From contig NZ_CANMNP010000009.1 in NCBI RefSeq assembly GCF_947499295.1, positions 124,001 through 188,000 of the forward strand: a stretch of 64,000 nucleotides of DNA, in the 5' to 3' direction. Positions 29,201 to 52,000 of the stretch are shown piece by piece. Numbering within the stretch: the stretch's first letter is position 1; every line of letters starts with the position of its first letter. The notes beneath the pieces are model-generated. The model did not search any database. It saw nothing but the letters and a program-made list of their open reading frames with translations, and was not told the origin of the DNA. The translations under genes and the position numbers were made by a program. Origin of the DNA: an uncultured Roseibium sp. GTDB lineage: Bacteria > Pseudomonadota > Alphaproteobacteria > Rhizobiales > Stappiaceae.

Positions 29201-29232
29201 TCTCAGCTCCTGGAGCGCATTCCCGCCCCACC

Positions 29233-31191: not shown

Positions 31192-31563
31192 TCCAAATGG
31201 CAGCACATTTGCCCCCAATTCGTTCGCCCGCCACGGCAGGCACATTTCGTCACCGAATTGAAAGCAAGCACCGGGCCAGTTTCGGACATCCCGACAAGAC
31301 ATTGAAAAATATGACTTAAAGTGTTTTCCCTTGCACTAAGAACGAAAAAGAAGGCGGCAAGCTTTGCCGATCCGGCAAAGCGTGCCTGCCATGCAAGGGA
31401 TGCAATTGGCAGACACCTGGCTTATCTGTATAGTGCCGCCGAATTTGAAATGACAAAGGATCTGAGCGGCCGGCGGAACCTGAAGTGGAAACCGGGACCG
31501 CGCCTAGTGGCATGATGCTGTGCCAGCCAGGTTGATCCGCCAGAACTTCTGGAAGTTGAATTG
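31192..31563. promoter_or_regulatory. Divergent region, fliK / mnmA
   Basis: About 370 bases holding the promoters for fliK (minus) and mnmA (plus). I looked for a sigma-54 element (TGGCAC-N5-TTGC) for fliK on the minus strand; the only candidate, near 31375-31395, has the wrong spacing. A short inverted repeat (TTTGCCGATCCGGCAAA) is at about 31364-31380. No other gene is visible. Confidence 0.35.
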
Positions 31564-33776: not shown

Positions 33777-35147
33777 TCAATCTTTCGCCTCGGATTTACT
33801 TAGTTTTCCAAGTTCGGCCAACACCGCTGCACCTGTTTTGATGCCGTCGATGAAACGCACAACTTCCAGGTTTTCGTTCGGGGCATGATTGGCTTCATCG
33901 GCGTTCGCGTAAGGGATCACGAAGGCTGGAAGATCCAAGATCTTGGTGAAGACATAGTCTGGCAACGACCCTCCGACAGTCGGATAAAGCAGAGGGTCAA
34001 CGCTGCGCGCAGCCTTTACGGCCGCAATCAACGGCGCGGCGAACGGGCTGGTCAGCGGCGTTTTGGAAGGCAGCATTCCATTGTGGCGGATAACTTAGAC
34101 CTCCGGGGCAAAACGCGCCACATGCGCCTCCACCCGTTCGAACACATAGTCGGGCGTCAGCGGCTCAACGAGTCGGATATCGCATTTGGCGATCGCCTGG
34201 TTCGGGAGAACCGTTTTGCTGCCGGGGCCGTTATACCCGCCGCTGATCCCGTTGATCGTTAAAGTGGGGTGGAACATCAACCTGTCCCAGTAAGGCCGGT
34301 CTCTCGGCCCGTCCAGCTCATCGATGGCAAGGTCCGCCTTCACGGCGGTTTCATCGTCGGGAAGCCGGGAAATAACCTCCCGTTCCAGATTGGTCGCCGG
34401 AATAACCGGCTCGGTTATGCCTTCAACAGTGATGTTTCCGTCCGCGTCTTTCATGGTTGCAAGAAGCTGCACCAGCGTCCAGATCGGATTGGGCACCACT
34501 CCGCCGAAGTTGCCAGAATGCACGTCACGCGAAGCGCCTTTTGCCAGCAGATCGAAGGACGCAACTCCACGCACTCCGAACGTGATGACCGGCTGACCGC
34601 TTTCATGCAGCGGGCCATCGGATGTAACCACGAGATCTGCTTGAAGCCGGTCTGCGTTTTGCTTCACGAAGTTCGCGATTTGCGGCGAACCGATTTCCTC
34701 TTCTCCCTCGAGCAGAAAAATCACGTTGCATGGCAATGTGCCATGGACTTTCAAATGCGTTTCGATCGCCAGCAATTGGGCGAAATGCTGCCCCTTGTTG
34801 TCACCGATGCCGCGCGCCCAGATCCGCCCATCCCGCAATGCCGGCTCGAACGGAGGGCTTATCCAGGCCTCCAGAGGGTCGGGCGGTTGCACGTCGTAGT
34901 GGCCATAGAGCAATACCGTCGGCCTCGCCGGATCCACATCGAAACGCCCCAGAACGAACGGATGTCCAGGTGTCTCTACAAGACCGGCTTCAAATCCCAA
35001 CCCCTCCAGATGCCTCACAAGCATGCCGGCGACCGCACGAATTCCAATATCATGCGCGGAGATGGAAGGATGGCGGACATAGTCCATCACGCGCGCCACG
35101 AACTCGTCCGCATTTGTATCGATGTGATCGAAGAGCGCCTTGTTCAT
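33777..35147 (-). pseudogene. M20 family amidohydrolase/dipeptidase interrupted by an in-frame TAA
   Basis: Codons 1-350 (to 34098) encode a M20 metallopeptidase: metal-binding blocks LLYGHYDVQPPDPLEAW, WARGIGDNKGQ, FLLEGEEEIGSP and the lid region VHSGNFGGVVPNP. A TAA at 34095-34097 then stops translation, but the same frame continues without shift through VIRHNGMLPSKTPLTSP to the normal C-terminus (YPTVGGSLPDYVFTKILDLP; NADEANHAPNENLEVVRFID), which carries the last catalytic His. Full length would be 456 codons, normal for the family. One base change explains the break, unless it is a sequencing error. The start overlaps the hyuA stop by 4 bp, so it is the last gene of the ABC/hydantoinase operon. 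Confidence 0.85.
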
Positions 35148-37189
35148 GCGGTGTCCCGCTTCAGCAGAAGAGCACCGGAGGCGTGAACTTGTGCGGTCCA
35201 GCCTGGCGAGATCACCGACGTTGTATCCAATTGTGTAAGGATCGCAGGACCGAAAATTTCAACTTCAGCGCCAAGGGCAGCCCGGTCATAAATCGGCGTT
35301 TCCAGCGTCCCGTCAGGCCAATGGACCATTTGAGTTTGAAGCGGGTCAGGTTTGGTTGCCGGGTCAAGCGCCGGCACTTTGATGGGTTCGGTGCGGCCCA
35401 GCGCTTCCACGCGGAGCGTCACCAGCTCAATCGGAGCGTCGAGCACAAAGCCATAGAGCGCTTCATGTGCAGCTCTGAAGTTCTTTTCCGTTTCTGGCGC
35501 GGATAGGCCCCAGTCGACGGCAATTTCACCACCTTGTCCGTGAAACCGCAAAAGTGCGCGGGCCTGCAACACCCGTTCCTCAGTAGGGACGCCTTCGGTA
35601 TCCAGCCATTCCTCAGCCTTGGATGTCAGCTCACTGACAATCGCATCGCCAACATCCTGATCCGTCTGTCCGGGCATGGGCAGCGCGCGTGTGAACTCCG
35701 CTTTCATGTCTGCCGCCAGCAACCCGCCTGCACAAAGCAGTCCGGGCGCGGGAGGAACCATCACATGCGAAATGCCCAGAAGCTCAGCAAGTGCGCAGCC
35801 ATGCAAAGGCCCTGCTCCGCCAAAGGGAACCAACGTAAATTCGCGCGGGTCATGACCGCGTTCGACCGACACGGTCCGTACCGCGCCGATCATATTATTG
35901 TTCATAATCGCAAGAATACCCTGTGCAGCCTCTTCATCGTTGAGCCCTAGAGGCTTGGCGACATTGTCACTGACAACTCGCCGGGCCGACTCCACATCAA
36001 GTGACATCGAGCCACCAAGCAAAGCGTGTGGCAGGTTGCCCAGCGTTACATGGGCATCAGTGACCGTTGCCTGTCGGCCGCCCTGTCCATAGGCAGCCGG
36101 ACCCGGGCGCGCGCCTGCAGAATGCGGCCCGACGGCAAGCGTGTCATTGGTAACCTCCGCAATTGAGCCACCGCCTGCACCAATCGTGACCATATCCACC
36201 ATGGGCAGTGACAGCGGCCATTCTCCGACCTTGCCTTGCTGGGTCAGTGCAATGGCACCATCCCGTATGAGGCAGATATCGGCGGATGTGCCGCCGATGT
36301 CGACGGTGATTATGTCGTGAATACCGCAGGCAGCAGCCGCATCAACGGCGCCTACAACACCGGCGGCAGGACCGGACAATGCGGTCAACGCCGGCGCGAC
36401 CCGGATTGCTTCGGTTCCCGCCACGCCGCCATTGGATTGCATTAACAACAAGGGTGACGCAGCTTCGGCATCGTCCAATCGTTCCTGCAAGCGGGAGATG
36501 TAGCTGGAGACACCGGGCATGACGTTCGCATTCAAAACAGTTGCCAAAGATCGTTCGAACTCACGGACAACCGGCAGAACGTCCGTCGAACAGGTCACGG
36601 CAACGCCCGGAAGCGCATTTCTAAGAATTTCAGCCACGCGGATTTCGTGGACCGGGTTGGCGTAGGCATGCAGCAGACAAACGGCAACCGCTTCCACATT
36701 CTGGGTTTTCAGGGCGTCAACGACCTGCTGCGCGCTGCCTTCGTCAAGCGGTTCAAGAACCTTTCCGCCGGTTCCGATCCGCTCCGCAATCTCATGAATT
36801 CTATCCGCCGGAACCGGGCGTGCAGGTTTGACCCAGGTGAAGAGATTTGCATGGCGCGGGATATCCTGGCGCCCGATCTCAAGCACATGCCGGAAACCGC
36901 GTGTCGTCACAAGCGCGGTTCTGGCTCCCTTGTCTTCAAGGATCATATTGGTGGCAACGGTCGTGCCATGAAGTACGCGGGACAGGTCCTTCGCGCTGAT
37001 GCCGGCATCCTCCATCACACTCCGGACCCCGGTCATAAAGGCTTGGGAAGGATCGGAAGGGACCGACGGCGTTTTCGCCCGCCACATGGAGCCGGAATTG
37101 CGATCCAGCAACGAGATATCGGTAAACGTGCCGCCGATATCGACCGCAACGGCGTAGGATGGATCCAGTGTCGCGTCAAACGAAGGCAT
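35144..37189 (-). CDS. hyuA: Hydantoinase/oxoprolinase subunit A (HyuA-type)
   Basis: A 681-residue protein of the N-methylhydantoinase A / 5-oxoprolinase family, which uses ATP to open cyclic amides. The ASKHA ATP-binding motif YAVAVDIGGTFTDISLLD is at residues 12-29; a second acetate-kinase-like block is DIITVDIGGTSADICLI (about 280), and ALSGPAAGVVGAVDAA lies between. AGGAG lies 7 bases before the ATG at 37189 (another ATG is at 37195). It overlaps the hyuB stop by 14 bp and the M20 start by 4 bp. Substrate (hydantoin, N-methylhydantoin, 5-oxoproline or another lactam) is not determinable from sequence. Confidence 0.92.
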   Translation of the reverse strand: MPSFDATLDPSYAVAVDIGGTFTDISLLDRNSGSMWRAKTPSVPSDPSQAFMTGVRSVMEDAGISAKDLSRVLHGTTVATNMILEDKGARTALVTTRGFRHVLEIGRQDIPRHANLFTWVKPARPVPADRIHEIAERIGTGGKVLEPLDEGSAQQVVDALKTQNVEAVAVCLLHAYANPVHEIRVAEILRNALPGVAVTCSTDVLPVVREFERSLATVLNANVMPGVSSYISRLQERLDDAEAASPLLLMQSNGGVAGTEAIRVAPALTALSGPAAGVVGAVDAAAACGIHDIITVDIGGTSADICLIRDGAIALTQQGKVGEWPLSLPMVDMVTIGAGGGSIAEVTNDTLAVGPHSAGARPGPAAYGQGGRQATVTDAHVTLGNLPHALLGGSMSLDVESARRVVSDNVAKPLGLNDEEAAQGILAIMNNNMIGAVRTVSVERGHDPREFTLVPFGGAGPLHGCALAELLGISHVMVPPAPGLLCAGGLLAADMKAEFTRALPMPGQTDQDVGDAIVSELTSKAEEWLDTEGVPTEERVLQARALLRFHGQGGEIAVDWGLSAPETEKNFRAAHEALYGFVLDAPIELVTLRVEALGRTEPIKVPALDPATKPDPLQTQMVHWPDGTLETPIYDRAALGAEVEIFGPAILTQLDTTSVISPGWTAQVHASGALLLKRDTA

Positions 37190-38987
37190 CGACATACTCC
37201 TGACGGTGAAAACGCCGGACTTCCGGACGATCATTGCGTAGCGCCTGCGTCGCCAGATGGTCGAGTTCACCTTCCTCGATCACAACGCCATATTCGCCTA
37301 TTGCTGCTTCCTGGGTGACGAAACCTCCGAGGACGTCGCGCAGCACCTCTTCTGCCGGGCGGTCATACGGGTGGCCGTAACCACCCCCTCCCCCGGTTTG
37401 TATGCGCAAGATATCTCCCCTTTTCAGCATGTTGCCGTCGGAGAGCGGATCGAGGCGGATTTCCGCCTCGGTTCCCGGATTGACAACCGCAACACCGTGC
37501 CGTCCCGATTTGCCGCCATGGATACCCCAGGGCGGGTTTTTGACGCTGTCGATACGGATCGCCACCATGGTTTCCTCTGCGAGGATTTCATATTCCCGGA
37601 CAATTCCGCAACCGCCCCGATAACGTCCTGCGCCGCCGGAATCCGTTGCGATCCCGTATACCCGCATCGTGACCGGGTAACCGGCTTCTAGAAATTCGAC
37701 CGGGTAGTTCTCCTGGGCGACAAAGTAGACGGCATCGATCCCATCGGCCGTAGAGCGCGCGCCATAGCCAACGCCGATCCCGTCTGCCAGGAGATAGGGT
37801 TCGAGCCTGCCTTCCACTGTCCGGTACTTGCCGCGCATGATGTTGACCACATAGGCGGAGTTCGCAGCCGGTGCCTCGCCTTCCCCGGCATTCAAGAGCC
37901 CGCACATGGCGGAAATCATCCGCATGGCGGTGAGACCGCGCAGCCCAAGCGGAGCCGGGTACTCCGGCTGCAAAAAACTGCCCTTTCGAAACAGCACCTC
38001 GTCCAGAGCATTCGGCCCGCCCGCATTGCAAACCTGGCTGGGATCTCCCCCTAGATAGAAGAGACCGAGCGCCATACCAGGAACGCCCTTGTTCATCAGG
38101 TAGTTGATTGGCCCCGGCGCCTGATCGTCGCTCTCGCGGGCATCGAAGCTGTAAACGTCGTCTCCGTCCTCGCCTTTGGCACGGGTGAGCGAAAACCGCA
38201 TATGAAACGGCCCGTTTCCGTGCCCGTCCGTATCAATCGCATCGGTAAAGCTATGCGTACCGTAGTCAAAGCTTTCAGCCAGCTTTCCGCGCACAAGCTT
38301 CCGGGTACGCTGCAAGAGCTGCGCAAGCGCATCTTCCATGATGGCCGGTCCGAACCGGTCCAGAATTTCACCCACCCTGCGCACACCCAGCTCGACAGAA
38401 GCCATCAGGGCACGCATGTCGCCAATGCTTTGATCGGGATATCTGGAATTGCGGTGAAAGATGTCGAGGACGGCCTGATTGACCCTGCCCGCTTCGATCA
38501 TTTTGGTCACCGGGATCATGATCCCTTCCTGAAAAATATCCGTCGCATCGGGGCTAATGGACCCCGGACGCAGTCCGCCGATATCGGCGAAATGCGCCCA
38601 GCTCATCACAAAGGCCCGCACCTTGCCGTCGCGAAAAACCGGAGCGAGCAAAACCTGATCGTTGGAATGGGAAATCGCGCCGTAGGAACCGTAGCAATCG
38701 TTGTACCAGTAGACATCGCCTTCCTGCATGGTTTCCATGGGAAACTTTTCAAGAACGGGGCGTGTCATATCCCCGAAAATGGGAACCATCGACCCCACCG
38801 CCATGGTGCCGTTTCCGTCAAACAACGCGGTGTAGAAGTCCTTCTTTTCCCGGATAAACGCCGAGATGGCGGTGCGTTCTATAAGCGCTTCCATTTCAGA
38901 TTGGGCGGCGGCGATCGCGCCGCGAATGATCTCAAGCGAGACAGGATCGCAGAGCGCCTGTTCAATCACGCGCGTTTGCTTATTCAT
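37176..38987 (-). CDS. hyuB: Hydantoinase/oxoprolinase subunit B (HyuB-type)
   Basis: A 603-residue partner of the A subunit. Family blocks are DPVSLEIIRGAIAAAQSEME at the N-terminus, HSNDQVLLAPVFRDGKVRAF and WAHFADIGGLRPGSISPDAT (about 130-160), and the C-terminal GGSGGAGRYRGGCG-like and GGGGGYGHPYDRP motifs. Together A and B form the ATP-dependent ring-opening enzyme. The ATG at 38987 has GGAG six bases upstream and overlaps the oxidoreductase stop by 8 bp. Confidence 0.93.
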   Translation of the reverse strand: MNKQTRVIEQALCDPVSLEIIRGAIAAAQSEMEALIERTAISAFIREKKDFYTALFDGNGTMAVGSMVPIFGDMTRPVLEKFPMETMQEGDVYWYNDCYGSYGAISHSNDQVLLAPVFRDGKVRAFVMSWAHFADIGGLRPGSISPDATDIFQEGIMIPVTKMIEAGRVNQAVLDIFHRNSRYPDQSIGDMRALMASVELGVRRVGEILDRFGPAIMEDALAQLLQRTRKLVRGKLAESFDYGTHSFTDAIDTDGHGNGPFHMRFSLTRAKGEDGDDVYSFDARESDDQAPGPINYLMNKGVPGMALGLFYLGGDPSQVCNAGGPNALDEVLFRKGSFLQPEYPAPLGLRGLTAMRMISAMCGLLNAGEGEAPAANSAYVVNIMRGKYRTVEGRLEPYLLADGIGVGYGARSTADGIDAVYFVAQENYPVEFLEAGYPVTMRVYGIATDSGGAGRYRGGCGIVREYEILAEETMVAIRIDSVKNPPWGIHGGKSGRHGVAVVNPGTEAEIRLDPLSDGNMLKRGDILRIQTGGGGGYGHPYDRPAEEVLRDVLGGFVTQEAAIGEYGVVIEEGELDHLATQALRNDRPEVRRFHRQEYVDAFV

Positions 38988-40002
38988 GATCAACTCCAGT
39001 CAGAGCGGGAAGTGTGAGCACCGTTTGCCCCAGTCCGCCGGCTTCGACGCGGGCGTGCGCGGCAACTATTTCAGACAGTGGATGAGTTGCGCCGATGCTG
39101 GGCGACAATGTGCCCTCGGAAAGCATTCTTGTGATGGTTGCTTCGGCTTCGGTCCGCTGACCGGCCGTGAGCCGAAAGCCTTGAATGAAACGGATCTGCG
39201 CACCAAGCCCGGCAAAGGCATAATAGGGCAGCACCGGCGCCGGGTTTGAACTGCAGGAATAACTGGCAATGGCTCCGTGGGACGCTAGGCAGGCGGCATC
39301 AATTTCAAGATTGGCAGCCAGGTCCACTTCCACAATGAGATCAGCGCCTGCACCGGCCGTTTCACGGACCACCTCTGCCGGAACCTCCTGTCGATGCCGG
39401 TCGATCACCACGACGTCACCGAATGCGGCTACCGCGGCCGCTCCATCTTCTGAGCTCACCGTGCCGATGACCTTAGCGCCATGCGTCACCGCGATCTGGA
39501 CACAGATCTGACCGACGGCGCCAGCGGCGCCCTGTATAAGAACCGTCTTTCCAGCTAAGCCTCCGGCACCCAGCAACGCCAACCAGGCCGTTAATGCCGG
39601 AACACCCAGGCACGCTCCGGTTTCGAAGCCCGTATCATCGGGCAACCGAACGGCCTGCGGTGATGGCAGGACCACATACTCAGCGGCCGTCCCGAAAGCG
39701 CGCCCCGCTTCGCCGTAGCCGCCCTGCGCATTCCAAAGCCAGACCCGCTCTCCGATCCTTTGGGAAGAAACACCTTCCCCAACAGCCTCAATCACACCCG
39801 CACCGTCCGAATGCGGAATGATCAAAGGATGAGCCATGGAAGAGGCGTTCCATCCCGCGCGCCTTTTGGTGTCTGCGGGATTTATTCCCGACGCCATGAC
39901 GCGCACGCGTACATTTCCCTCGCCGGGCGAAGGCACCGGGCGATTTCCAAGCTGAAGAACCTCAGCCGCATCACCTGTCTGGGTGTAATAGGCTGCTAGC
40001 AT
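38980..40002 (-). CDS. Zinc-less MDR alcohol dehydrogenase / quinone oxidoreductase
   Basis: A 340-residue medium-chain reductase of the NADPH:quinone oxidoreductase type: MLAAYYTQTGDAAEVLQLGN start, DGAGVIEAVGEGVSSQRIGE (about 65-85), and the nucleotide-binding VLIQGAAGAVGQICVQIAVT (about 142-162). No structural-zinc Cys cluster is seen, as expected for the QOR branch. It overlaps the upstream ATPase stop by one base (TGATG) and is embedded in the operon, so it probably reduces or oxidises an intermediate of the imported compound; the actual substrate is unknown. Confidence 0.88.
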   Translation of the reverse strand: MLAAYYTQTGDAAEVLQLGNRPVPSPGEGNVRVRVMASGINPADTKRRAGWNASSMAHPLIIPHSDGAGVIEAVGEGVSSQRIGERVWLWNAQGGYGEAGRAFGTAAEYVVLPSPQAVRLPDDTGFETGACLGVPALTAWLALLGAGGLAGKTVLIQGAAGAVGQICVQIAVTHGAKVIGTVSSEDGAAAVAAFGDVVVIDRHRQEVPAEVVRETAGAGADLIVEVDLAANLEIDAACLASHGAIASYSCSSNPAPVLPYYAFAGLGAQIRFIQGFRLTAGQRTEAEATITRMLSEGTLSPSIGATHPLSEIVAAHARVEAGGLGQTVLTLPALTGVDHE

Positions 40003-40979
40003 CACGGGCTCACGAAATGGCAGGCGACAAGGCGCGTATCTATTCGGCGCGGCGTGGGAACTTCGCTGGCGCACCGGGATTGGGCTTTCGGGCAACGATC
40101 ACGAAAGACACAGCCGGAAGGCGGGTTACGCGGATCGGGGGCTCCGCTGCCGATAGGCAGGGGATCATGGCTCTGGTCCACATTGGGTGTGGGCACCGCC
40201 GCCACCAAAGCCTGGGTGTAAGGGTGCAAGGGAGTGTGGACGATGTCCTCCGTTGGGCCATCCTCCATGATCTTTCCAAGATACATGACGATGGTGCGCT
40301 CACACACGTAGCGCACCAGGGCAAGATCGTGGCTGATATAGATAGCCGTCAGACCCAGACGGTCGCGCACGTCGCGAAAGACATTCAAAACACCCGCACG
40401 CACCGAAACATCGAGCATGGAAACCGGTTCGTCAGCGACGACAAAATCAGGCTCCAGGATCAGGGCACGCGCCATGACGACCCGCTGAAGCTGCCCTCCC
40501 GAAAGCTGATGGGGAAACCTTTCCAGGAATTGCTCGGGATCACCAAGCCCCACGAGGGCCAGAGCATCGACCACACACTGGTGCCAAGAGCCGCGTTCGA
40601 CCTTGGCATTGGCAAGAGGCTCTTCAAGCGTTTTGCGGATGGAATAACGCGGGTTCACTGCATCGAACGGATTTTGAAAAATCATTTGCGAACGGCTGCG
40701 GAACCGTTGCAGGTCGGCACCTTTCAGATCCCTGATTTCTTCCCCTTCAAACCGCGCGGACCCGCCGGTTACTTCTTCAAGCCGCACCAGGATCCGGCCC
40801 ATGGACGTCTTGCCGCATCCCGACTCACCCAACAGGCCGACACTTTCGCCTTTCTTGAGGGAAAAGGTCACACCGTCGACTGCCTTGACCGTCGTCGACA
40901 GGCCCATCATGGCGGAAACCGCATTGCCAATCTTGTAGTGCAATTGGGCGTTGCTCAGTTCGATGATGGTTTCACTCAT
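40002..40979 (-). CDS. Peptide-type ABC transporter ATP-binding protein (OppF/DppF-like)
   Basis: A 325-residue ATPase. Walker A is GLLGESGCGKTSMGRIL, the ABC signature is HQLSGGQLQRVVMARAL and Walker B is DFVVADEPVSMLDVS. The C-terminal oligopeptide-transporter domain ends with FRDRCPKAQSRC, a possible Fe-S or structural Cys element typical of Opp/Dpp ATPases. The ATG at 40979 overlaps the upstream ATPase stop by 4 bp. It pairs with the next ATPase to energise the permeases of this operon. Confidence 0.94.
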   Translation of the reverse strand: MSETIIELSNAQLHYKIGNAVSAMMGLSTTVKAVDGVTFSLKKGESVGLLGESGCGKTSMGRILVRLEEVTGGSARFEGEEIRDLKGADLQRFRSRSQMIFQNPFDAVNPRYSIRKTLEEPLANAKVERGSWHQCVVDALALVGLGDPEQFLERFPHQLSGGQLQRVVMARALILEPDFVVADEPVSMLDVSVRAGVLNVFRDVRDRLGLTAIYISHDLALVRYVCERTIVMYLGKIMEDGPTEDIVHTPLHPYTQALVAAVPTPNVDQSHDPLPIGSGAPDPRNPPSGCVFRDRCPKAQSRCASEVPTPRRIDTRLVACHFVSP

Positions 40980-41995
40980 GCCGCCGTCCCCCAGGTAGCA
41001 GGCATCTTGGCGTCTTCCCGCAAAGCTGGAGCCTCGGAGACGCGGTGACAGGCAACGAAATGGCCTGGAGCTCCCTCGATCAGCGGCGGCTCGTCCGTCC
41101 GGCACTGATCGAGGGCAAAGGGGCACCTGGCTGCAAATCGGCACCCCGATGGCGGGCTGGCAAGATCCGGAGGGCTGCCGGCAATAGGGGTCAGTACGCC
41201 GCTTCCCGCCGATTGGAGATCGGGAAACGCGTTTTTGAGACCCATTGTATATGGATGAAGCGGTTCACTCAGAAGGGTCGCGGTATCGCAATCCTCGACA
41301 ACCTTTCCGGCATACATCACCACCGTGCGGTCACATATATACGCCACCACAGATATATCGTGCGTAACTAGAATGACGGACAGACCAAGCTCCCGCTGCA
41401 GATTGCGCAACTGGTCCAGGATTTGGCGTTGGATGATGACGTCAAGCGCGGTGACCGGCTCGTCTGCGACCACCAGTCTCGGCTGAAGGGCCAAGGCAAG
41501 CGCGATTGCCACACGCTGGCGCATGCCGCCGGAAAACTGGTGAGGAAAATCGCGCAAGCGCCCCGGATCGATCCCCACCATTTCGAAGAGTTCAAACGCA
41601 CGCTTACGCGCTGCGGATTTGCTCATACCTCCGCGGTCTCGCAGAACTTCCATAATCTGATATTCGACCCGGTAAACAGGATCGAGCGAGTTCATTGCCG
41701 ATTGAGGAATAAAAGCGATAGCGCGCCAGCGCAGCGCGTTCATATCCCGTTCGGACAGGGAGACGATGTCCTGACCATCGAACTGCATCTGCCCATCAGC
41801 GATCCGGGCGTTGTCCGCAATCACCCGGGTTAGTGCACGCGCCATCGTGGTTTTGCCACAACCGGACTCACCAACCAGCCCAACAATGGAGCCCTGAGGC
41901 ACATCGAAGCGGGCCTTGCTGACGGCAACGATGTCGAGCGTTCCGACTTCATAGGCAATGGTCACATCTCTGACCGACAAGAGTGGTCCGGTCAT
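40976..41995 (-). CDS. Peptide-type ABC transporter ATP-binding protein (OppD/DppD-like)
   Basis: A 339-residue ATPase with Walker A GLVGESGCGKTTMARAL, signature HQFSGGMRQRVAIALAL, Walker B RLVVADEPVTALDV, and a C-terminal oligopeptide-transporter domain with FAARCPFALDQCRTDEP. It begins 1 bp after the stop of the upstream permease gene and overlaps the next ATPase gene, consistent with tight co-translation. Confidence 0.94.
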   Translation of the reverse strand: MTGPLLSVRDVTIAYEVGTLDIVAVSKARFDVPQGSIVGLVGESGCGKTTMARALTRVIADNARIADGQMQFDGQDIVSLSERDMNALRWRAIAFIPQSAMNSLDPVYRVEYQIMEVLRDRGGMSKSAARKRAFELFEMVGIDPGRLRDFPHQFSGGMRQRVAIALALALQPRLVVADEPVTALDVIIQRQILDQLRNLQRELGLSVILVTHDISVVAYICDRTVVMYAGKVVEDCDTATLLSEPLHPYTMGLKNAFPDLQSAGSGVLTPIAGSPPDLASPPSGCRFAARCPFALDQCRTDEPPLIEGAPGHFVACHRVSEAPALREDAKMPATWGTAA

Positions 41996-41996
41996 G

Positions 41997-42896
41997 TCAG
42001 CGCCCCAACTTTGGAAACAGCAGATTTTCATATCCGCGCGAAATGAAGAAACCGGCACTCACCACCAAAATGATGGCAAGGCCAGGAGGTATGAACCAGT
42101 AATAGGCCTGCCGGGCGAGCGCCTGGCTTGCAAAAGCATCCTGCAGCATAAAGCCCCAACTGATGGCGTCCGGATCACCGAAACCCAAAAAGCTGATCGA
42201 TGCTTCCGTCAGGATCGCCCAGCCGATCGCGATCGAGCCGTAGAGAAAGGAAAGGGGCAGAATATTGGGTGTGATGTGACGCAGAATGATTTTCAGGTCC
42301 GACGATCCGACGACCCGCGCAGCCTCCACGTAACCGCGCGAGCGGAGCGAAAGCACCTGCGAACGGATCACCCTGCCCGTGTCGCGCCAAAGGACAAGCC
42401 CCATGGCGATAACCGTGTTCCAGATAGAAGGCTCGGAGAAGGCGGAAATCACGATGACAAACGGGAGAAACGGAATGCCGAACGCGACGTCGGCAAGGCG
42501 CATCAGAACGGCATCGACCCATCCGCCAAAATAACCGGCCAGCAAGCCGACAATGGAACCGATAAAGGCCACCATGAACGCAGCGGTGAAGCCAACCAGC
42601 AAGGCAGAACGTGCGCCCCACACAATCTGGGAGAAGATGTCACGGCCAAGCGAGGTCGTTCCCAGGATGTGGCCTTCAGCGCCGGGAAACAGATCGGATG
42701 CGAGGTCGTAATCAGCGGTATAGAGGATTTCTGAAGGGTCATATGGCGCGATATATGGTGCGCATATTGCTGTCACGACAAAGACCGCATAGATCACCAG
42801 TCCGGCCAGTGCGAAAGGATCGCCGACAGGCAACCGAATTGCGGCAAAGATACGGGCGATGCCGCTTTCGTGTTTCTGTACCGCCGTTTCAGGCAT
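41997..42896 (-). CDS. Peptide-type ABC transporter permease (OppC/DppC-like)
   Basis: A 299-residue inner-membrane permease with the usual N-terminal helix (LAGLVIYAVFVVTAICAPYI), the periplasmic-loop block HILGTTSLGRDIFSQIVWGA, and the EAA motif YVEAARVVGSSDLKIILRHI. About six helices are expected. The ATG at 42896 overlaps the preceding permease stop by 8 bp. Confidence 0.94.
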   Translation of the reverse strand: MPETAVQKHESGIARIFAAIRLPVGDPFALAGLVIYAVFVVTAICAPYIAPYDPSEILYTADYDLASDLFPGAEGHILGTTSLGRDIFSQIVWGARSALLVGFTAAFMVAFIGSIVGLLAGYFGGWVDAVLMRLADVAFGIPFLPFVIVISAFSEPSIWNTVIAMGLVLWRDTGRVIRSQVLSLRSRGYVEAARVVGSSDLKIILRHITPNILPLSFLYGSIAIGWAILTEASISFLGFGDPDAISWGFMLQDAFASQALARQAYYWFIPPGLAIILVVSAGFFISRGYENLLFPKLGR

Positions 42897-43866
42897 GGGA
42901 AATCCTTGGATCAAGAAATGTATAGAGCAGATCCGCAATGAGGTTCATGGCTATGACCACGATGGCAATCATCAGGAAAGCACCCTGAGCCAGCGGGTAG
43001 TCGGAAGCCAGAACGGCGGCGACCAGTTCACGGCCCAGGCCAGGCCAGGAAAACACGCTTTCGACGACCACGTTGCCCTGAAGCTGATATCCGACAGCGA
43101 TGGCAAAGGACGTGATCACCGGTAACAGCGCATTGCGAGCTCCGTGACGTATGACCACGGCAGAGGGCGACAGACCCTTGACCTTCGCCATGGTGACGAA
43201 ATCCTCTTTCATCACATCCAGCATATTGGAACGCATCAAAAGCAGCGGCAGCCCCTGGGAGTAAATTGCCAGTGTCAGCATGGGCAAAATCAGGTGAGAC
43301 AGAAAATCCGCCGATGTGTAAAGCGCCCAGAGGCTGCTGTAGTCGGTACCGGCAGATCTCGTCCCGCCCGCGGGGAACCACCCGAGCGAGAACGAGAAAA
43401 TCGCCAGCAGGACCATGCCGAGCCAGAATTCCGGCATAGCCCGGGTCGCAAGCACGGCAGGCAAGGCAGCAACTTCCACTCGGGAACCTCTCCGCCACGC
43501 CAGCCAGGCTCCTGCCAGAATGCCAAAAGCATATGCCACGATCAGGGAGGAAAAAGTCAGCACAAGCGTGTTGGGCAGCAGCAGCCAGATACGTTCCGCA
43601 ACAGGTGCGCGATACCGGAAAGAATACCCGAGTTCGCCCTGAAGCAGGTTTCCCAGATATGCGAAATACTGTTGCCACAATGGCTTATCGAGACCGAATT
43701 GGCGGATGAGCGCCTGTTGCTGCTCCTCAGTAAATGTAGGGTCGATATAGGCGGCCAGCGGACTGCCCGGCATCAAGCGGAACATCAGGAACAGGATGGT
43801 CACCACAGCCCAAAGGACCAGCGCCAGTTGCAGCGTTCTGATGAGCAGAGGCTTAAGTGAATTCAT
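42889..43866 (-). CDS. Peptide-type ABC transporter permease (OppB/DppB-like)
   Basis: A 325-residue permease: first helix LALVLWAVVTILFLMFRLMP followed by PGSPLAAYI, the conserved LGLDKP-type block (FGLDKPLWQQYFAYLGNLLQ then GELGYSF), and EAA loop DFVTMAKVKGLSPSAVVIRH. Length and order match OppB/DppB. The ATG at 43866 is 110 bp after the binding-protein stop; a strong hairpin lies in that gap. Confidence 0.94.
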   Translation of the reverse strand: MNSLKPLLIRTLQLALVLWAVVTILFLMFRLMPGSPLAAYIDPTFTEEQQQALIRQFGLDKPLWQQYFAYLGNLLQGELGYSFRYRAPVAERIWLLLPNTLVLTFSSLIVAYAFGILAGAWLAWRRGSRVEVAALPAVLATRAMPEFWLGMVLLAIFSFSLGWFPAGGTRSAGTDYSSLWALYTSADFLSHLILPMLTLAIYSQGLPLLLMRSNMLDVMKEDFVTMAKVKGLSPSAVVIRHGARNALLPVITSFAIAVGYQLQGNVVVESVFSWPGLGRELVAAVLASDYPLAQGAFLMIAIVVIAMNLIADLLYTFLDPRISHA

Positions 43867-43928
43867 CGCACGTCCCGAAAGGCCACCGGCAAAAGCAGCA
43901 AGAAAATGTCCAAGACTTTTTGGAAGAT

Positions 43929-43961
43929 AGCGCGCGGCACTTTTCAAGCGGGCCGCGCGCT
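43929..43961 (-). other. Intercistronic hairpin between binding protein and permease
   Basis: AGCGCGCGGC at 43929-43938 is perfectly complementary to GCCGCGCGCT at 43952-43961 (10 bp, 13-base loop). It lies 15 bp past the binding-protein stop and is not followed by a T-run on the minus strand. Such hairpins often stabilise the upstream mRNA so the binding protein is made in excess over the membrane components; that role here is inference. Confidence 0.65.
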
Positions 43962-43976
43962 GCTTATGTCAACGCG

Positions 43977-45632
43977 TTACTTCGCAAGTGTTTCCGAAAC
44001 GCCTTCCGGATAGGTCAGGCGGTCTCCGATACCGCCGTAACCTGCTTCTTCAAGAATACCCTTGGCGACATCCGAACCGGCCTTGAAGCCATCGACAACA
44101 TCAGCGGCATGCCAGTATTCAAGCGCCGGGGAAACGACTGAGTTCGACGGCACCGCGAACTTCTTGAAAGCGGCATTGACAATCAGACGGCGGTCCACGG
44201 CGCTGGACAGGGCCCGGCGGAACGCAGGGTCGTCAAACGGGGGGCGGCGAAGATTGAAGGCCACATACCGGAAACCGATATCAACGGTCGAAACCACTTC
44301 AAGGTCGCCGTCTTCCTCAGCCGCCGTGATGAGAACCTGCGGATCCCCCTGAAAGTCGGTGAGGAAGTTCAATTCGCCTGAGCGAAGCATGCCGAGAGCG
44401 GCCTCTGCATTCGGAACGATCCGCAAGATAAAGCGTTCGGCCTTGGGTGCGTTAAAGTGAACGGCATTGGCCTCAAGCACAATCTCTTCATTTGGCAGCC
44501 AGCGCACGAACTTGAAGGCGCCTGACCCGATCGGTGTGTCTTCCTGATAGGATTCCGCGTTCTCTTCCTTGGCAGACAAGTCTGTGAGGATCGGTTCCCA
44601 GACATGTTTCGGGATGATGTTGATCTTGGCAAGGCTGGAAGTCAGGAACGAGGCTGACGGCGTCGCCAGGGTGAAAACGACAGTATTGTCGCCTTCGACC
44701 TCGATGTTGGTCACATTCTGACCAAACGGAGCGTACATGGGCGCTTCGCCACCTGTGGTCGCCTGATAGGAGAACACCACGTCTTCAGCTGTGACCGGCT
44801 GGCCATCATGGAACTTCAGGCCATCGCGCAGTGTAACTGCAATGGTGGTGTCGCCGCGCCATTCATAACTTTCGGCCGCCCAGGGCGTGGGCAAGCCATC
44901 CGGTCCGACACGGAACAGGCGGTCATAGATGAGTTCGGTCAGCCAATTGTCGGTGACACCCGAAATATAAAGTGGGTTTACGGCAATCACATTGTCCGAG
45001 CTGTTGACGATGACGTCTTTCTGCTCGCCGATCGGCGCCAACGACAACCACGTCCAGTAGCTGCGAATGCCAATTCCAGATTGGTCGACAACGGACGCCG
45101 GGTCAAACACGTTCTTGTCAAAGGCGAAAGCCTGCTGCGGATGCACGAGCATCATATTCGGCTGATCGGCGTCGAGCATCTTCTGCGCCTCGAGAACAAG
45201 CGCTTGACGCTTCTCAGGATCGACCGTGATCCGCTGCTCTTCTACCAGTTTGTCGTATTCTGGGTTGTTATAACCGATGAAGTTATAACCCTTTTCGGCA
45301 GTCGAAGAATGAAAGAGGTTGTAGATGATCTCATCCGGGTCAGAACGCTCGGGTCGCCCCGTCATCTGCCAGGCCGTCACATCCCAGTCATTCCGGTTGT
45401 ACCAGACCGTGTCGGCCATCTGCGACCAGGGCATGACGTCAATCTCCACATCGAGACCCAGCTTGCGCCACTCCTGTGCGATCAGCTGGATCGCCTGAAA
45501 CTCGGCAGGTTGAGCCGCCTGAGGCCGCGACAACAGGTGAATCGTGCGGATCGGGTCCTGCGCGGCAACGGATGTCGCATAAAGCGATGCGCCCAGCACA
45601 CTCCCGACGGCAATTTTGAGAAATGTCTTCAA
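43977..45632 (-). CDS. ABC transporter substrate-binding protein, SBP_bac_5 family, apparently circularly permuted
   Basis: A 551-residue periplasmic protein with a signal peptide (MKTFLKIAVGSVLGASLYAT, cleavage after VAAQ). Residues 25-205 (AIQLIAQEWRKLGLDVEIDV; NNPEYDKLVEEQRITVDPEK; MLDADQPNMMLVH) correspond to the normally C-terminal part of DppA/OppA-type proteins. Residues about 206-551 then give the normally N-terminal part (NWLTELIYDRLFRVGPDGLP; LRDGLKFHDGQPVTAEDVVF; PIGSGAFKFVRWLP; FRRALSSAVDRRLIV), ending where the family usually continues. The start is a TTG at 45632 with AGGAG upstream at good spacing. It heads the operon, and substrate is probably a peptide, hydantoin or related amide. 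Confidence 0.9.
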   Translation of the reverse strand: MKTFLKIAVGSVLGASLYATSVAAQDPIRTIHLLSRPQAAQPAEFQAIQLIAQEWRKLGLDVEIDVMPWSQMADTVWYNRNDWDVTAWQMTGRPERSDPDEIIYNLFHSSTAEKGYNFIGYNNPEYDKLVEEQRITVDPEKRQALVLEAQKMLDADQPNMMLVHPQQAFAFDKNVFDPASVVDQSGIGIRSYWTWLSLAPIGEQKDVIVNSSDNVIAVNPLYISGVTDNWLTELIYDRLFRVGPDGLPTPWAAESYEWRGDTTIAVTLRDGLKFHDGQPVTAEDVVFSYQATTGGEAPMYAPFGQNVTNIEVEGDNTVVFTLATPSASFLTSSLAKINIIPKHVWEPILTDLSAKEENAESYQEDTPIGSGAFKFVRWLPNEEIVLEANAVHFNAPKAERFILRIVPNAEAALGMLRSGELNFLTDFQGDPQVLITAAEEDGDLEVVSTVDIGFRYVAFNLRRPPFDDPAFRRALSSAVDRRLIVNAAFKKFAVPSNSVVSPALEYWHAADVVDGFKAGSDVAKGILEEAGYGGIGDRLTYPEGVSETLAK

Positions 45633-45875: not shown

Positions 45876-46664
45876 ATGGCAGGACCGACAGCAACTGATG
45901 CAGCCGGACGGAAGTCTTACCGAATAGATGCAGTGGCCCGCGCGCTTAGAGTTCTGGAAGCCTTGGGTGACAATCCCGGCATTGGCACGACAGCTCTCGC
46001 AGAAAAGCTTGGCGTAACCAAATCCATCGCGTTCCGGCTGCTCCAGACCCTGGAAGAAGACGGTTACGTTCAGCGTGACGAGGAGCGAGCAATCTATTCG
46101 CTTGGCTACCGCATCGCGCTGCTTGGCGAACGCGTTGGACGCAAAGGCGCTTTGTTGCAGGTGGCGCGTCCTGTTATGGATACCCTGAGGGACGAAACGG
46201 GTGAAAATGTAAACCTGGTTGCACGAGAAGGAACCGCATCGGTCGCAATCGCAACCCGTGAGGGCCTTCATAGCATTCGTCTTTTCGCACAAACCGGACG
46301 GCGCGGCCCCCTGCATGCAGGTGGTGCGTCCATGGTGCTTTTGGCCTATGCAGAACCCAGTATTCGCGATCGTGTACTCGAGGGTCCGCTCGAGCGGTTC
46401 AGCCCCCATACGATCACAGACCCGGAGCGGTTGCGCGAAGCTCTCCTGCTCATTCGCTCGAACCGCTACAATGTGGCGATCAACGACCTGGACGACGGCG
46501 CCTTTTCCGTCGCCGCACCGATCCAGAACACGGCCGGCGAAATCATCGCGGGCATCTCGGTCGCCGGCGCATCAGCCCGCCTGGATGAAGTGCGGCGGGC
46601 AAGCTACATCGAAAAAGTTGTCGAGGCCGCGGACGAGATCTCAAAACGCCTGACCCTTAGCTGA
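45876..46664 (+). CDS. IclR family transcriptional regulator
   Basis: A 262-residue regulator. The winged HTH (about residues 15-75) includes DAVARALRVLEALGDNPGIG, TTALAEKLGVTKSIAFRLLQ and LEEDGYVQRDEE. The C-terminal IclR effector domain follows (GENVNLVAREGTASVAIATR; GRRGPLHAGGASMVLLAYAE; VAINDLDDGAFSVAAPIQNT). IclR proteins usually bind a small metabolite and control the adjacent catabolic genes. It is divergent from the ABC/hydantoinase operon and upstream of the M28-like gene, with two operator-like motifs ahead of its own start. The short GAGAAGA precedes the ATG. Confidence 0.94.
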   Translation: MAGPTATDAAGRKSYRIDAVARALRVLEALGDNPGIGTTALAEKLGVTKSIAFRLLQTLEEDGYVQRDEERAIYSLGYRIALLGERVGRKGALLQVARPVMDTLRDETGENVNLVAREGTASVAIATREGLHSIRLFAQTGRRGPLHAGGASMVLLAYAEPSIRDRVLEGPLERFSPHTITDPERLREALLLIRSNRYNVAINDLDDGAFSVAAPIQNTAGEIIAGISVAGASARLDEVRRASYIEKVVEAADEISKRLTLS

Positions 46665-46759: not shown

Positions 46760-46798
46760 TGTTTTATTCTACGCTACATTGTTTCAATGAGTAAAACA
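46760..46798. promoter_or_regulatory. Putative IclR operator upstream of the M28-like gene
   Basis: TTTCAATGAGTAAAACA (46782-46798) matches the 45822-45838 copy at 15 of 17 positions. A weaker inverted partner starts TGTTTTATTC at 46760, repeating the inverted-pair arrangement seen before iclR. The strong copy spans the ATG at 46787, which argues that translation starts at 46811. Confidence 0.65.
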
Positions 46799-46810
46799 CT
46801 GGAACCTCCC

Positions 46811-48541
46811 ATGAATGCCGCCGAGACCAAACTGCTTGACCAAGTCACCATCGATGAACCCTGGGCACTGGTTGAAAGTTTTTCGACCTTCAAACGCGAA
46901 CATCCTGATGATGTGAACCGAGGTATGGACGAAGTTGTCTCCCGGCTGAAAGCACATGGTGTTGAAGTCAGGGTCCACGAACCGGACCTCTTTTTGAGCC
47001 TGCCGGGACAGGCCCGGGTTGAAGCGGACGGCCAGATATTCCGCGCCAAGCCGCCTGCGTTCAGCGCCGATGCAAGGGACGGGTTCACAGGGGACCTTGT
47101 CTATATTCCCGGCACCACGAACATGGACGAGGAAGACGCGTTCGAGAGCCAGCTTGAAGCGGGCCCCGACATGGAAGCACGGGTGCGCGGCAAAATTGTC
47201 CTGACCGAAGGTTTCGCAAGCCCGGCCATCATTTCTCTGATGGAGGCCTGCGGTGCGGTCGGCGTAATCGCCATCAACCCCGGGGTCGACATTCACTGGG
47301 GTATCTGCACCACGATCTGGGGAATTCCCGGGACGGCTGATCTGGACCGCAAGCCGCGTATTCCGGCTGCCGCCGTCAACTTGGAAAGCGGCAAAACACT
47401 CATCGAGATGGCGCAGGCCGGCAAGAGCGCCACAATCATAACGGAGATGGAGGAGGGCTGGTTCCGCTCCAAGCTGCCCGAAATCACAATCAGAGGCACG
47501 GAAGAACCGGAAAAATATGTGTTGTTGCACGGTCACCTGGACAGTTGGGATGTGGGCGTGGGGGACAATGCAACCGGCGATGCGACCATGCTTGAGATAG
47601 CCCGTGTACTTTGGGCCAACCGCGACAAACTCCGGCGCTCGGTGAAAATCTGCTGGTGGCCCGGCCATTCGACTGGCAGATACGCGGGATCGACCTGGTA
47701 CTCCGATACATTCGCGCTCGATCTTGATGAGAACTGCGTCGCTCAGGTGAACTGCGACAGTCCCGGTTGCCGGTGGGCGACGGAATTCATCCATGTATCG
47801 GTCATGTCTGAAGCCCATGACTTCCTGGCCCAGGTCATCAGAGAAGTTGCCGGCAAGGAACTTCAATCCGAGCGGCCGCACCGGGCGGGCGACTACTCGT
47901 TCAATGACATTGGCCTCTCCAGTTACTTGATGTTGTCGTCCGCAATGACAGACGCTCACAGGGAGGAGCTCGGCTACTATGCCGTTGGCGGCTGCGGTAT
48001 GAACATCGCCTGGCATACGGAAAACGACACGCTGGAAATTGCCGACAAAGACATCCTTCTGCGGGACATCAAAGTCTATCTTCTTGCAGTCTTCAGAAAT
48101 GCAAATGCATCAGTGCTGCCAATGGACTGGCGGGCAACAGCCCGCGAGTTCCAAGCAACGATTGACGACTATCAGCAGCAGGCGGGGGACGCTTTCGATC
48201 TGTCAGCTTGCAGCGTCGCCACCACCACCCTTGCCGAAGATCTGGACCGCTTTTACGCTCGTGTTGATCAGGGCAGAGTTTCCGAAGAAACGGCAAATAC
48301 CGTGATCCAGGAGCTGGCGCGTATTCTGGTACCGCTCAACTTCAACAGAAGCGCACGCTTCCGCCACGATCCGGCCCTCACAATCCCGCCGCTGCCTGCT
48401 CTGGAAGAAGCAACGAAGATCGCGAAGCGGCCCGTTGACCTGCAAGGGTTTTCGCGCACAGAACTTGTGCGCGGCCAGAACCAGGTGATTGCCGGCATGC
48501 GCGCGGCCCGGAAACTAATCGCGAGCGCAGCCGGAAGCTGA
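46811..48541 (+). CDS. M28-family-like protein with PA domain, catalytic Glu pair not visible
   Basis: A 576-residue soluble protein. A PA-type insertion (residues about 80-230; GKIVLTEGFASPAIISLMEA) precedes an M28 peptidase fold: HGHLDSWDVGVGDNATGDAT with the first His and bridging Asp, a segment CWWPGHSTGRYAGSTWY where classic M28 enzymes have Glu-Glu, then VNCDSPGC and NIAWHTENDT with the remaining Asp and His ligands. The Glu pair replaced by His-Ser suggests an altered hydrolase or binding role. I chose the ATG at 46811 because an operator covers the ATG at 46787. It follows iclR and probably belongs to the same regulon. Confidence 0.82.
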   Translation: MNAAETKLLDQVTIDEPWALVESFSTFKREHPDDVNRGMDEVVSRLKAHGVEVRVHEPDLFLSLPGQARVEADGQIFRAKPPAFSADARDGFTGDLVYIPGTTNMDEEDAFESQLEAGPDMEARVRGKIVLTEGFASPAIISLMEACGAVGVIAINPGVDIHWGICTTIWGIPGTADLDRKPRIPAAAVNLESGKTLIEMAQAGKSATIITEMEEGWFRSKLPEITIRGTEEPEKYVLLHGHLDSWDVGVGDNATGDATMLEIARVLWANRDKLRRSVKICWWPGHSTGRYAGSTWYSDTFALDLDENCVAQVNCDSPGCRWATEFIHVSVMSEAHDFLAQVIREVAGKELQSERPHRAGDYSFNDIGLSSYLMLSSAMTDAHREELGYYAVGGCGMNIAWHTENDTLEIADKDILLRDIKVYLLAVFRNANASVLPMDWRATAREFQATIDDYQQQAGDAFDLSACSVATTTLAEDLDRFYARVDQGRVSEETANTVIQELARILVPLNFNRSARFRHDPALTIPPLPALEEATKIAKRPVDLQGFSRTELVRGQNQVIAGMRAARKLIASAAGS

Positions 48542-49036: not shown

Positions 49037-52000
49037 TCAGGCCGCGTTGACGGCAATGTTTGCTTCGGTGCCCTCGGTGTCGAGCACCACCCGGATCGTG
49101 TCGCCAATCGATGCGTGATCCTGGAGCGTCGCGGCTTCCTGCCAGGCGTGATCGCCTTCTTTGCCGACTTCAACGCGAAGCTCACCGTTCTCACCGCGCT
49201 GGGCTCGGATGTATTCAGCCGCATCGGCCGCTGAACCGAAAGCGTTGGCGAGCAGTTGGCCAAGGTCGAGCTTGTCGCCTTCTCCGAAGGTGTAATCGGT
49301 GATGATGTCGGCTTCGGCCAGGGAGTTGAGCACGAATGTGTCGGCGCCTGCACCTCCGGTCAGCGTGTCGAACCCGAGACCACCGATGAGAATGTCGTCG
49401 CCGTTGGAGCCAACCAGGATGTTGCCACCATCGTCCCCGGTGATGACAGATCCGGCGACAGTCACCGTTACCGTAGCTTCAGGTGTGCCACCGTTATCGC
49501 CGGACGCGTCCGCGCCGTTAACGACCGTTCCGGGCGCTTCCGCGCTGTTGGAAACGGTAGAGGTCGTCAGAGGCGTTTCGTCCGACAGGACATCCAGGTC
49601 GATCGAGCGCGTCACGGTAGTGCCCTTCGCAAAGACCAGCTCCAATTCGACTACATCCTTGCCGTGATATCCGTCAGCCGGTGTGTAGGTTACCGTGAAG
49701 TCTTCGCTGATGTCGACGCTGCCGATGGACGTATCGCCCTTGATATCGACGGAAGCAAGGCCCGCGGCGACCTCCTCCGCAGTCGCTGCATAGAGCACCA
49801 TCGCAACCCCGGCCGCGACGGCCGCGGACTGGCGGTTAGTGTCGGCTTCGGTGTCGGCGGTGTCATCGTTAGCAGCGCCGAAGCTCACGCCGGTGTAAAC
49901 GCCCTCAGAACCGTCCACCTTGGTGTAGGTGCCTTCCGCAAAGACTGTATTGCCGTCAACGGCCCGGTCGACCTTGCCTGCGTTGAGATCGATCGAAGAG
50001 ATCCCGTGTTCGAACAGGCTCTGGAGTTCACCCGCCTGGCTGAAACCGTCGGAGTTGGCATCCTGCCAGACCTTGATGTCGCTGAATGCGGCATCCTGAG
50101 TGTCGATCATGCCGTCACCATTGTCATCGAGCGAGGCCAGCGCTTCCAGAGAGTCCGCGAAAGAACCATCGTTGAAAACTTCGGAGAACACTTCCGATCC
50201 GTTTTCAATGGCCCCGGATCCGTCAAGATCGACCACCAACATGCCGTCATCGGGGCCAACCCAGCCGATGGTCTCAGCCGTTCCATCAGCGTCAATATCG
50301 AAGACCACCGGGCCGGCGAGAAGCTCAGTGCCATCGCCGTCAAGATCGAGAATGATCGGGTCGGAGACTGTCACCAACAGACCGGCATCGTCGATCGTGT
50401 AGGTCTGGCCTCCAAATGAGAAGCCAAGGGTGGCGAACTCCACGATGGCCGGGTCGGCTGCGCCCGCCAAGGTGTATGCGGTCACAAAATCGGCATCCAA
50501 GCCGGTACCAGCTGTATTGAATTGAACGAGTAAATCGAAACCACTTTCGAGAACACGCACATAGTCGGACGAAGCCCCCCCACTACCAATCGCCGCCTCA
50601 AGCGCGTCTAGATAACTCTGAAAAGTGTCACTGTCAGGCGTTGTCAGGGTGATCATCACATCATCGAAATTGATGACCTCAACGCTGTCCGTGATCGTGT
50701 CGGCGCCGTCACGGCTGACGACTGTATCTTTGATCGTGATTGTTCCGTCGGCATTTATGGTCAGGACATAGTCCGCTGCATCGCCGGTCAGGGAGATGCT
50801 GTCGGAGCCTTCGCCTCCATCGAAGAAATCGTCACCAGCACCGGATTGGAAGATATCACCGCCGCCATTGCCATTGAACACGACACTGTGGCTGCTCGTC
50901 ATTTCGGACGCATCGACGGTATCGCCATCCCCGCCGCCATTGATCGTGATCGTCGTCGGATCGAGATCAGTGCCGGTGAAATCGCCGGAAACAACAAAGT
51001 TATCGGCACCGCCAAGGCCATTGACGTCAATGTCTTCAATGCCGTCGAGTTCGGCGATGACGGTCGAAGCGCCCGTCGGCCCGGCCAGGCCGCGCGACAC
51101 CACGATCTCCGTGTCGGCATCGAGCAAGCCGCCAAGGCCGGTCCGAATGTTGTAGTCGGTTACCGTCTCGATGAAGAAGGTCTCATCGGCGGACGCTTCG
51201 CCGGTGACATCAAAGGTGTCTATGTCGGTGCCACCATCGACAATGTCGCGGCCATCGCCAACCGTCCAAAAGATCGTGTCGTCGCCGGCACCGGTGCCGA
51301 TCGTGTCATCACCAGCGCCAAGAGTAACCTGGTCGTTGAAACCCGTTCCGGTGATATCGTCATTACCGGCGCTGTTATCGTAGATGCTGACCTCCGGCAC
51401 GTCGCCAGTAAAGGTGTTGGTGGCGCTGACGATTGCGCTGACATCCGTTGCGCCAGAAGTCTCAACGCCGATGCCGATCTGCTCAAGTTGATTGTCCATG
51501 AAGCTGTTACCGGAAATAGCATCAGCATCGGCACCGTCATTTGCCAGGCCGACAAAGTTATCTTGCAGAACGTTGTCAGTGATCGTTGCATTCGAGCCCG
51601 GATTGAGAAAGATGCCGGTCGTGAAGCCTGAAATCTTTGAATTGCTGACGTCCAGCCCGTCTGCATCGCCTATTTCGTTAAGCACGCCGCGCGCATTGCC
51701 GAAACCGCCCGTGCGCTCGATCAGCATATTGGTGATGGTGATATCGTCCGCCACGACGTAAATGCCGGGCGTCGTACCTGCCGATGCATCCTGCAGGATA
51801 TGTACACCATCGATCGTGCTGTCTTCTGAGCCTGTGTCAAAGGTGAAAGAGCCGGTGACCACGCTTTCCGTGCCGCGCGACGCATCGTCTCCGGAAACGT
51901 CTTCATTAGCGCCAAGGATCGTCAAATCCTTGTCGACGGTGACGTCTTCATCGTAGGTGCCGGGCCCGAGCAGGATCGTGTCGCCGTCTAAGGTGCCGAC

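Follow-up and report, generated by a model that had tools for sequence, protein, structure and literature searches.

A gene on the minus strand of a 64,000-nucleotide stretch of DNA from an uncultured Roseibium sp. (contig NZ_CANMNP010000009.1; the whole stretch is called the window here) encodes a substrate-binding protein (SBP) in which the order of the two parts is swapped. From its sequence and predicted structure, the protein is best explained, with a probability of about 0.93, as a natural circular permutant of a cluster C SBP (DppA/OppA, SBP_bac_5) that has a single origin and serves a Dpp/Opp-type importer. A large group of proteins on a single branch has the permuted order, and within the near subfamily the gene has kept its own permeases and ATPases beside it. 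By descent and score the window gene is a member of SBP_bac_5; by chain order it is not.

Layout of the permuted gene

The gene (45632 to 43977) is a single open frame of 551 amino acids with no internal stop, as had been claimed in a preliminary description made from the sequence alone, and the peptides quoted there are all present in the order listed. The segments are as follows.

43977..45632, minus strand: permuted SBP_bac_5 (cluster C) substrate-binding protein, 551 aa, TTG start (open reading frame, ORF, and PF00496)
45561..45632, minus strand: putative signal peptide, residues 1-24 (by eye; predicted local distance difference test, pLDDT, <50 for residues 1-22)
45042..45557, minus strand: segment B, residues 26-197, counterpart of the canonical C-terminal third, placed first (PF00496 profile 296-366)
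45018..45041, minus strand: join of about 8 residues (198-205) from the old C-terminus to the old N-terminus, limits approximate (alignments and secondary structure of the model)
44010..45017, minus strand: segment A, residues 206-541, counterpart of the canonical N-terminal two thirds (PF00496 profile 2-283)

The last residues of segment A are ..EEAGYGGIGDRLTYP. The permuted chain ends in the loop between the '..AGY..L.YP' segment and the next strand of the canonical chain. In the aligned permuted rows the chain end likewise comes soon after '..AGY..L.YP'; tails are longer in L071, L076, L163, and L167, and L166 ends earlier than the other rows. In L071 and L076 the signal is also separated from the first strand by about 45 additional residues, and the C-terminal tail, about 30 residues long, ends in GG; an isocitrate-lyase/phosphoenolpyruvate-mutase-like gene lies nearby (by eye).

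Profile evidence for the swapped order

The window protein matches SBP_bac_5 (PF00496) with 241.5 bits against a curated cut-off of 32.4. In hmmscan, the match consists of two stretches, the better of which places residues 248-537 on profile positions 2-283. The two stretches are swapped in the natural chain and become collinear only once the protein is rearranged. When the protein is rearranged in silico (205-551, then 25-204), a single stretch covers profile positions 2-366 of 368 with 254 bits, compared with 241.5 in the natural order. Each half scanned separately scores above the cut-off (34.9 and 215.6 bits). When the genome itself is scanned, the window gene shows profile 2-285 at 44891-44016 (214.9 bits) and profile 296-366 at 45518-45297 (30.7 bits, just below the cut-off). 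The 17 SBP_bac_5 matches in this genome comprise 15 genes with one match each and the two in the window gene. The same swap is seen against a solved structure: in a phmmer search of the PDB, residues 23-346 of AppA (1xoc) correspond to residues 206-534 of the window protein and residues 379-499 to residues 50-175. Ten NCBIfam equivalog models (DppA, OppA, NikA, GsiB, and others) match the protein, none of them reaching its cut-off (the best is Opp4A, 122.8/650).

Chain order was also examined with a hidden Markov model (HMM) trained exclusively on 22 canonical proteins. Every one of the 118 entries of the permuted set (the window protein, 37 diverse and 80 near relatives; 108 distinct proteins) shows the swapped order, and all 25 held-out canonical proteins, some of which are near copies of rows used to build the HMM, are collinear. 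The preliminary description had read the protein as a circularly permuted SBP_bac_5 protein, a reading that a standard profile running collinearly through the chain would have spoken against. PF00496 is not collinear on it, and sequence profile, structure prediction, and conservation all back the permuted reading. The description's statement that the protein is reordered with nothing lost agrees with the cut, which is complementary: the rearranged protein covers the profile almost end to end.

Structure prediction

The AlphaFold model of the window protein has a pLDDT of 91, and its fit to cluster C structures is confined to residues about 197-550. Among the 50 matches listed, residues about 174-550 of the model correspond to chain residues 1 to about 430; segment A matches canonical chain residues about 1-360. 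The first third modelled alone (residues 26-204) gives a mediocre model, which fits the C-terminal third of canonical chains, segment B matching chain residues about 341-521. All canonical parts of the cluster C fold are thus predicted to be present, the two portions matching complementary parts of canonical structures as the preliminary description had suggested checking. The canonical chain order is absent, since the first third aligns with C-terminal parts of chains. No solved structure in permuted order is found among the PDB sequence matches listed (best 60 of 101 and best 60 of 105). The structures matched to the full model come from Foldseek, and a fold that it misses would not show among them.

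Relatives and distribution

Four other genomes of the genus have full-length frames 92-97% identical to the window protein. Five further genomes of the family (one of them in the genus) have relatives of 29% identity in the same order, so that the total is 10 of 87 including the window's genome. At E <= 1e-32, a limit at which more distant members would be missed, the permuted order occurs in 12 of 297 genomes sampled from the taxonomic order (two more matching genomes are canonical-only) and in 13 of 385 from the class (one more is cut by a contig end and four are canonical-only); both counts include the window's own genome, which is the only match among 398 genomes of the phylum. These counts show that the permuted trait is scattered and not universal.

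Named genomes were scanned with residues 26-262, the stretch across the old ends, and the best 80 of 169 relatives were used; some of these loci lie in genomes already present in the samples above. The permuted order is found in all 80, in 79 of them as one full-length frame; in the exception, L106, the match of the frame stops at residue 474. Roseibium, Ruegeria, Mesorhizobium, Nitratireductor, Neorhizobium, Reyranella, and others are represented. There are also metagenome-assembled genome records labelled Trueperaceae, Thermomicrobiales, Chloroflexia, and ANGP1, on which the presence in these groups rests and which are possibly wrongly binned; one of them, L124, is a chromosome record of 4.29 Mb.

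All 34 plasmid records found at E <= 1e-30 have the permuted order over 80% or more of the query, and in 33 the match is a single piece. Twenty of the 34 are haloarchaeal, with 25-32% identity; presence in haloarchaea rests on these plasmid records, assigned by taxonomy lines for 8 and by name for the other 12. The two-piece record is Neorhizobium galegae plasmid pNgVX (H3/L170), where the permuted SBP is annotated as a hypothetical protein and an SBP. Since it is annotated as two genes and matches in two pieces, this copy is frame-broken or mis-sequenced. Among phage records, tblastn finds 24 with identity below 60%, of which two cover 80%, in two pieces. The search for proteins of the same order that the preliminary description proposed has found them in every near relative and plasmid record above. 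In the records examined, the annotation is plainly 'ABC transporter substrate-binding protein'.

Origin of the permuted order

After removal of 17 near copies, 68 of the 85 aligned rows remained (36 permuted and 32 canonical). In the joint tree of both segments (36 permuted and 29 canonical rows, three long rows left out), the permuted rows form one branch with support of 100/98, and the same support is obtained with 35 permuted and 32 canonical rows (eight canonical rows added, nine rows taken out). Canonical rows were chosen by likeness to permuted proteins, and their sampling is uneven. The nearest canonical row for both segments, raw and corrected, is L171 from Cytobacillus firmus, among 32 as well as among 40 canonical rows; L177 from Meiothermus taiwanensis is also among the nearest. 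That one row ranks first for both segments points to a single parent gene. As L171 was fetched through a segment B match, its rank is free of bias for segment A only. The permuted group is apparently old, widely spread, and of single origin.

Such an origin would involve one tandem duplication of a single SBP gene with fusion of the copies, after which the outer parts of the fused gene were lost. In the window protein the old C-terminal third follows the signal peptide and leads through the short join into the old N-terminal two thirds. The permuted protein would fold as the usual two-lobed trap, with only the site of the chain ends moved.

Several results weigh against this reading. The model of the first third has a pLDDT of 70.1 and a predicted template modelling score of 0.49, and many of its matches have root-mean-square deviations of 6-9. 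In the tree of segment A (36 permuted and 32 canonical rows), the permuted rows form one branch with a Shimodaira-Hasegawa-like approximate likelihood ratio test value of 94, just below the 95 mark. The tree of segment B requires two changes of order, not one, with all 68 rows, and one change (support 95) only without seven long rows. Deep branches within the permuted group are weakly supported, and no duplicated intermediate is seen. A candidate duplication footprint in L071 and L076, a copy of their own C-terminal '..LKDAGY..RL.YP' after the signal, was rejected as not significant: 21 (L071) and 33 (L076) of 300 shuffles each scored as high. A search of the class for more members of this type found the same two only (2 of 318 genomes).

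The two changes on the segment B tree, and a sister group firmly resolved for neither segment, would also fit domain shuffling, in which two SBP genes contributed, one the C-terminal third in front and the other the N-terminal two thirds behind it. Such a chimera of two genes is not favoured and seems unlikely, given that one full-length domain remains from a complementary cut and that L171 is nearest for both segments, with the selection noted above. Similarity ranks of the canonical rows also agree between the segments (Spearman 0.45, p 0.003), the rows not being independent. Because the trees are unrooted, the polarity of the change is itself an inference, and each order occupies one side of a branch. 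The B-A order might then be ancestral and the textbook A-B order derived, which we regard as improbable. The best stretches of the PDB matches listed (best 60 of 101 and best 60 of 105) are all in textbook order. With the root on L015, an outgroup by choice that we take to be YejA-like, the permuted group has canonical rows to either side. The canonical set is textbook-ordered wherever both parts matched, but it was selected for lacking a permuted match.

An assembly or frameshift artefact has a negligible chance of being the cause: the gene is one open frame, and the recurrence of its order in complete plasmids and in independently assembled genomes already refutes it. The misassembly that the preliminary description allowed for is thus not at fault, as independent full-length copies share the order. 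Membrane anchoring might be proposed as the reason for the new order, as a lipobox-like motif, [L/I][A/S]GC, follows the signal in all eight haloarchaeal rows (L159, L160, L163, L165, L166, L167, L168, and L169), which for that reason may be membrane-anchored. The motif occurs in none of the 30 other permuted rows, the window protein included, so that anchoring cannot be the general reason, and we give it little credence. 'Tat-like' motifs are found in 6 of 38 permuted rows with a crude pattern. A circular permutation that arose once within a single gene remains the favoured explanation.

Operon and putative solute

The window operon has the order SBP, two permeases, two ATPases, dehydrogenase, HyuB, HyuA, and M20, with a regulator and a peptidase gene on the other strand.

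42889..43947, minus strand: DppB/OppB-type permease (ORF limits; true start may be internal; PF00528, PF19300)
41997..42938, minus strand: DppC/OppC-type permease (ORF limits; PF00528, PF12911)
40976..42058, minus strand: ATP-binding cassette (ABC) ATPase, DppD/OppD type (ORF limits; PF00005, PF08352)
40002..41144, minus strand: ABC ATPase, DppF/OppF type (ORF limits; PF00005, PF08352)
38980..40095, minus strand: quinone-oxidoreductase-like dehydrogenase (PF08240, PF00107)
37176..38993, minus strand: hydantoinase B/oxoprolinase, HyuB (PF02538)
35144..37270, minus strand: hydantoinase A/oxoprolinase, HyuA (PF01968, PF05378)
33777..35147, minus strand: M20 metallo-hydrolase, split over two frames, 35147-34095 and 34076-33777 (PF01546 and PF07687 in the first piece; second by eye)
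45876..46664, plus strand: IclR-type regulator, divergent (PF01614, PF09339)
46787..48541, plus strand: M28-family peptidase (PF04389)

The gene set of a Dpp/Opp-type importer (SBP, two permeases, and two ATPases) is therefore present in the window. Two permease and two ATPase ORFs are found at all 61 loci with both 8-kb flanks and at 76 of all 80 loci. The neighbours at the 61 loci are M28 (53), HyuB (45), IclR (42), dehydrogenase (40), HyuA (33), and M20 (3); HyuA and M20 are undercounted because both lie about 8 kb or more away in the window. The HyuA/HyuB neighbourhood pointed out in the preliminary description is real in the window and occurs also on plasmids. The named plasmids carry the same gene island with variations, one of them with an Asp/Glu racemase. 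In the eight haloarchaeal records fetched, permeases follow the gene in all eight and an ATP-binding protein is annotated in seven; nearby genes include creatininase and M20 in one record, D-aminoacylase and dipeptide epimerase in another, and M28 in two.

By analogy with its canonical relatives, the window protein would bind its solute between the lobes and pass it to its own DppBC-type importer, and so would take part in transport. The neighbouring enzyme genes prompt a guess, the weakest part of the proposal, of a small amide as solute. Candidates include a hydantoin, an N-carbamoyl or N-acyl amino acid, and a dipeptide with a pyroglutamyl or D residue; HyuAB, M20, and M28 enzymes might then cleave the solute. 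Against this guess, the neighbours behind it differ between clades, and Maritalea has other neighbours with no hydantoinase nearby.

The M20 gene after HyuA has 350 aa in one frame and its likely C-terminal part in another, owing to a frame break or a sequencing error. Elsewhere in the window, a 2655-aa ORF (49037-57004, minus strand) resembles a large secreted adhesin, with calcium-binding/VCBS-like and RTX-like motifs that recur along it (by eye). Two adjoining ORFs at 28541-31302 (minus strand) resemble flagellar hook genes, FlgD- and FliK-like (by eye).

Implications

A permutation has been retained by a large and diverse natural family and has gone unseen in a heavily annotated transporter family. 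Natural and canonical protein pairs offer a test of what the position of the chain ends does in lobe closure, secretion, anchoring, and docking, and permuted SBPs are a ready biosensor scaffold with ends at another place. They also carry a warning, as collinear profile or structure searches report permuted proteins as partial matches.

Comparison with known systems

Canonical cluster C SBPs such as AppA (1xoc), DppA (1dpp), OppA (1ola), NikZ (4oet), and YliB (1uqw) differ from the window protein, in which the C-terminal third comes first and the chain ends sit in the loop after '..AGY..YP'. The nearest canonical relatives, L171 and L177, have the textbook order. No permutation of cluster C is described among the literature matches listed, subscription papers being mostly outside their coverage. 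It is reported in the CIRPIN preprint that AlphaFold clusters contain thousands of permuted pairs (PMC12667903). The words periplasmic, transporter, and solute are absent from its text, and large permutation screens of this kind may hold the present pair in their lists. Another text (PMC13133429) has no mention of binding protein, periplasmic, ABC transporter, or solute.

The preliminary description knew of no natural permutation in this family, which agrees with the literature searched; another SBP class does have a published one. This protein, TpMglB-2 (Tp0684) of Treponema pallidum, is an ABC substrate-binding protein with a natural circular permutation, named 'Type Ic / Cluster Bc'; it has homologues of the same topology and was demonstrated to bind glucose and to undergo a change of shape (PMC4990184). 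The present proteins very probably make up an unrecognised cluster C subfamily (by analogy, 'cluster Cc') that arose by one permutation and whose fold works with the chain ends in the other lobe. It is, with the same high probability, spread through Alphaproteobacteria, Deinococcota, Chloroflexota, other bacteria, and haloarchaea, with the topology kept through a very long divergence, down to about 25% identity. The two systems are alike in being natural permutations of ABC substrate-binding proteins with same-topology homologues. They differ in class, as TpMglB-2 belongs to type I/cluster B, whereas the window protein is SBP_bac_5 by profile and falls outside Type Ic / Cluster Bc. In TpMglB-2 the first three strands of the N-lobe have moved to the C-terminus, and in the window protein the C-terminal third has moved to the N-terminus. 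The moved part of TpMglB-2 has only 13% identity in its alignment, while each part of the window protein is recognised by the family profile.
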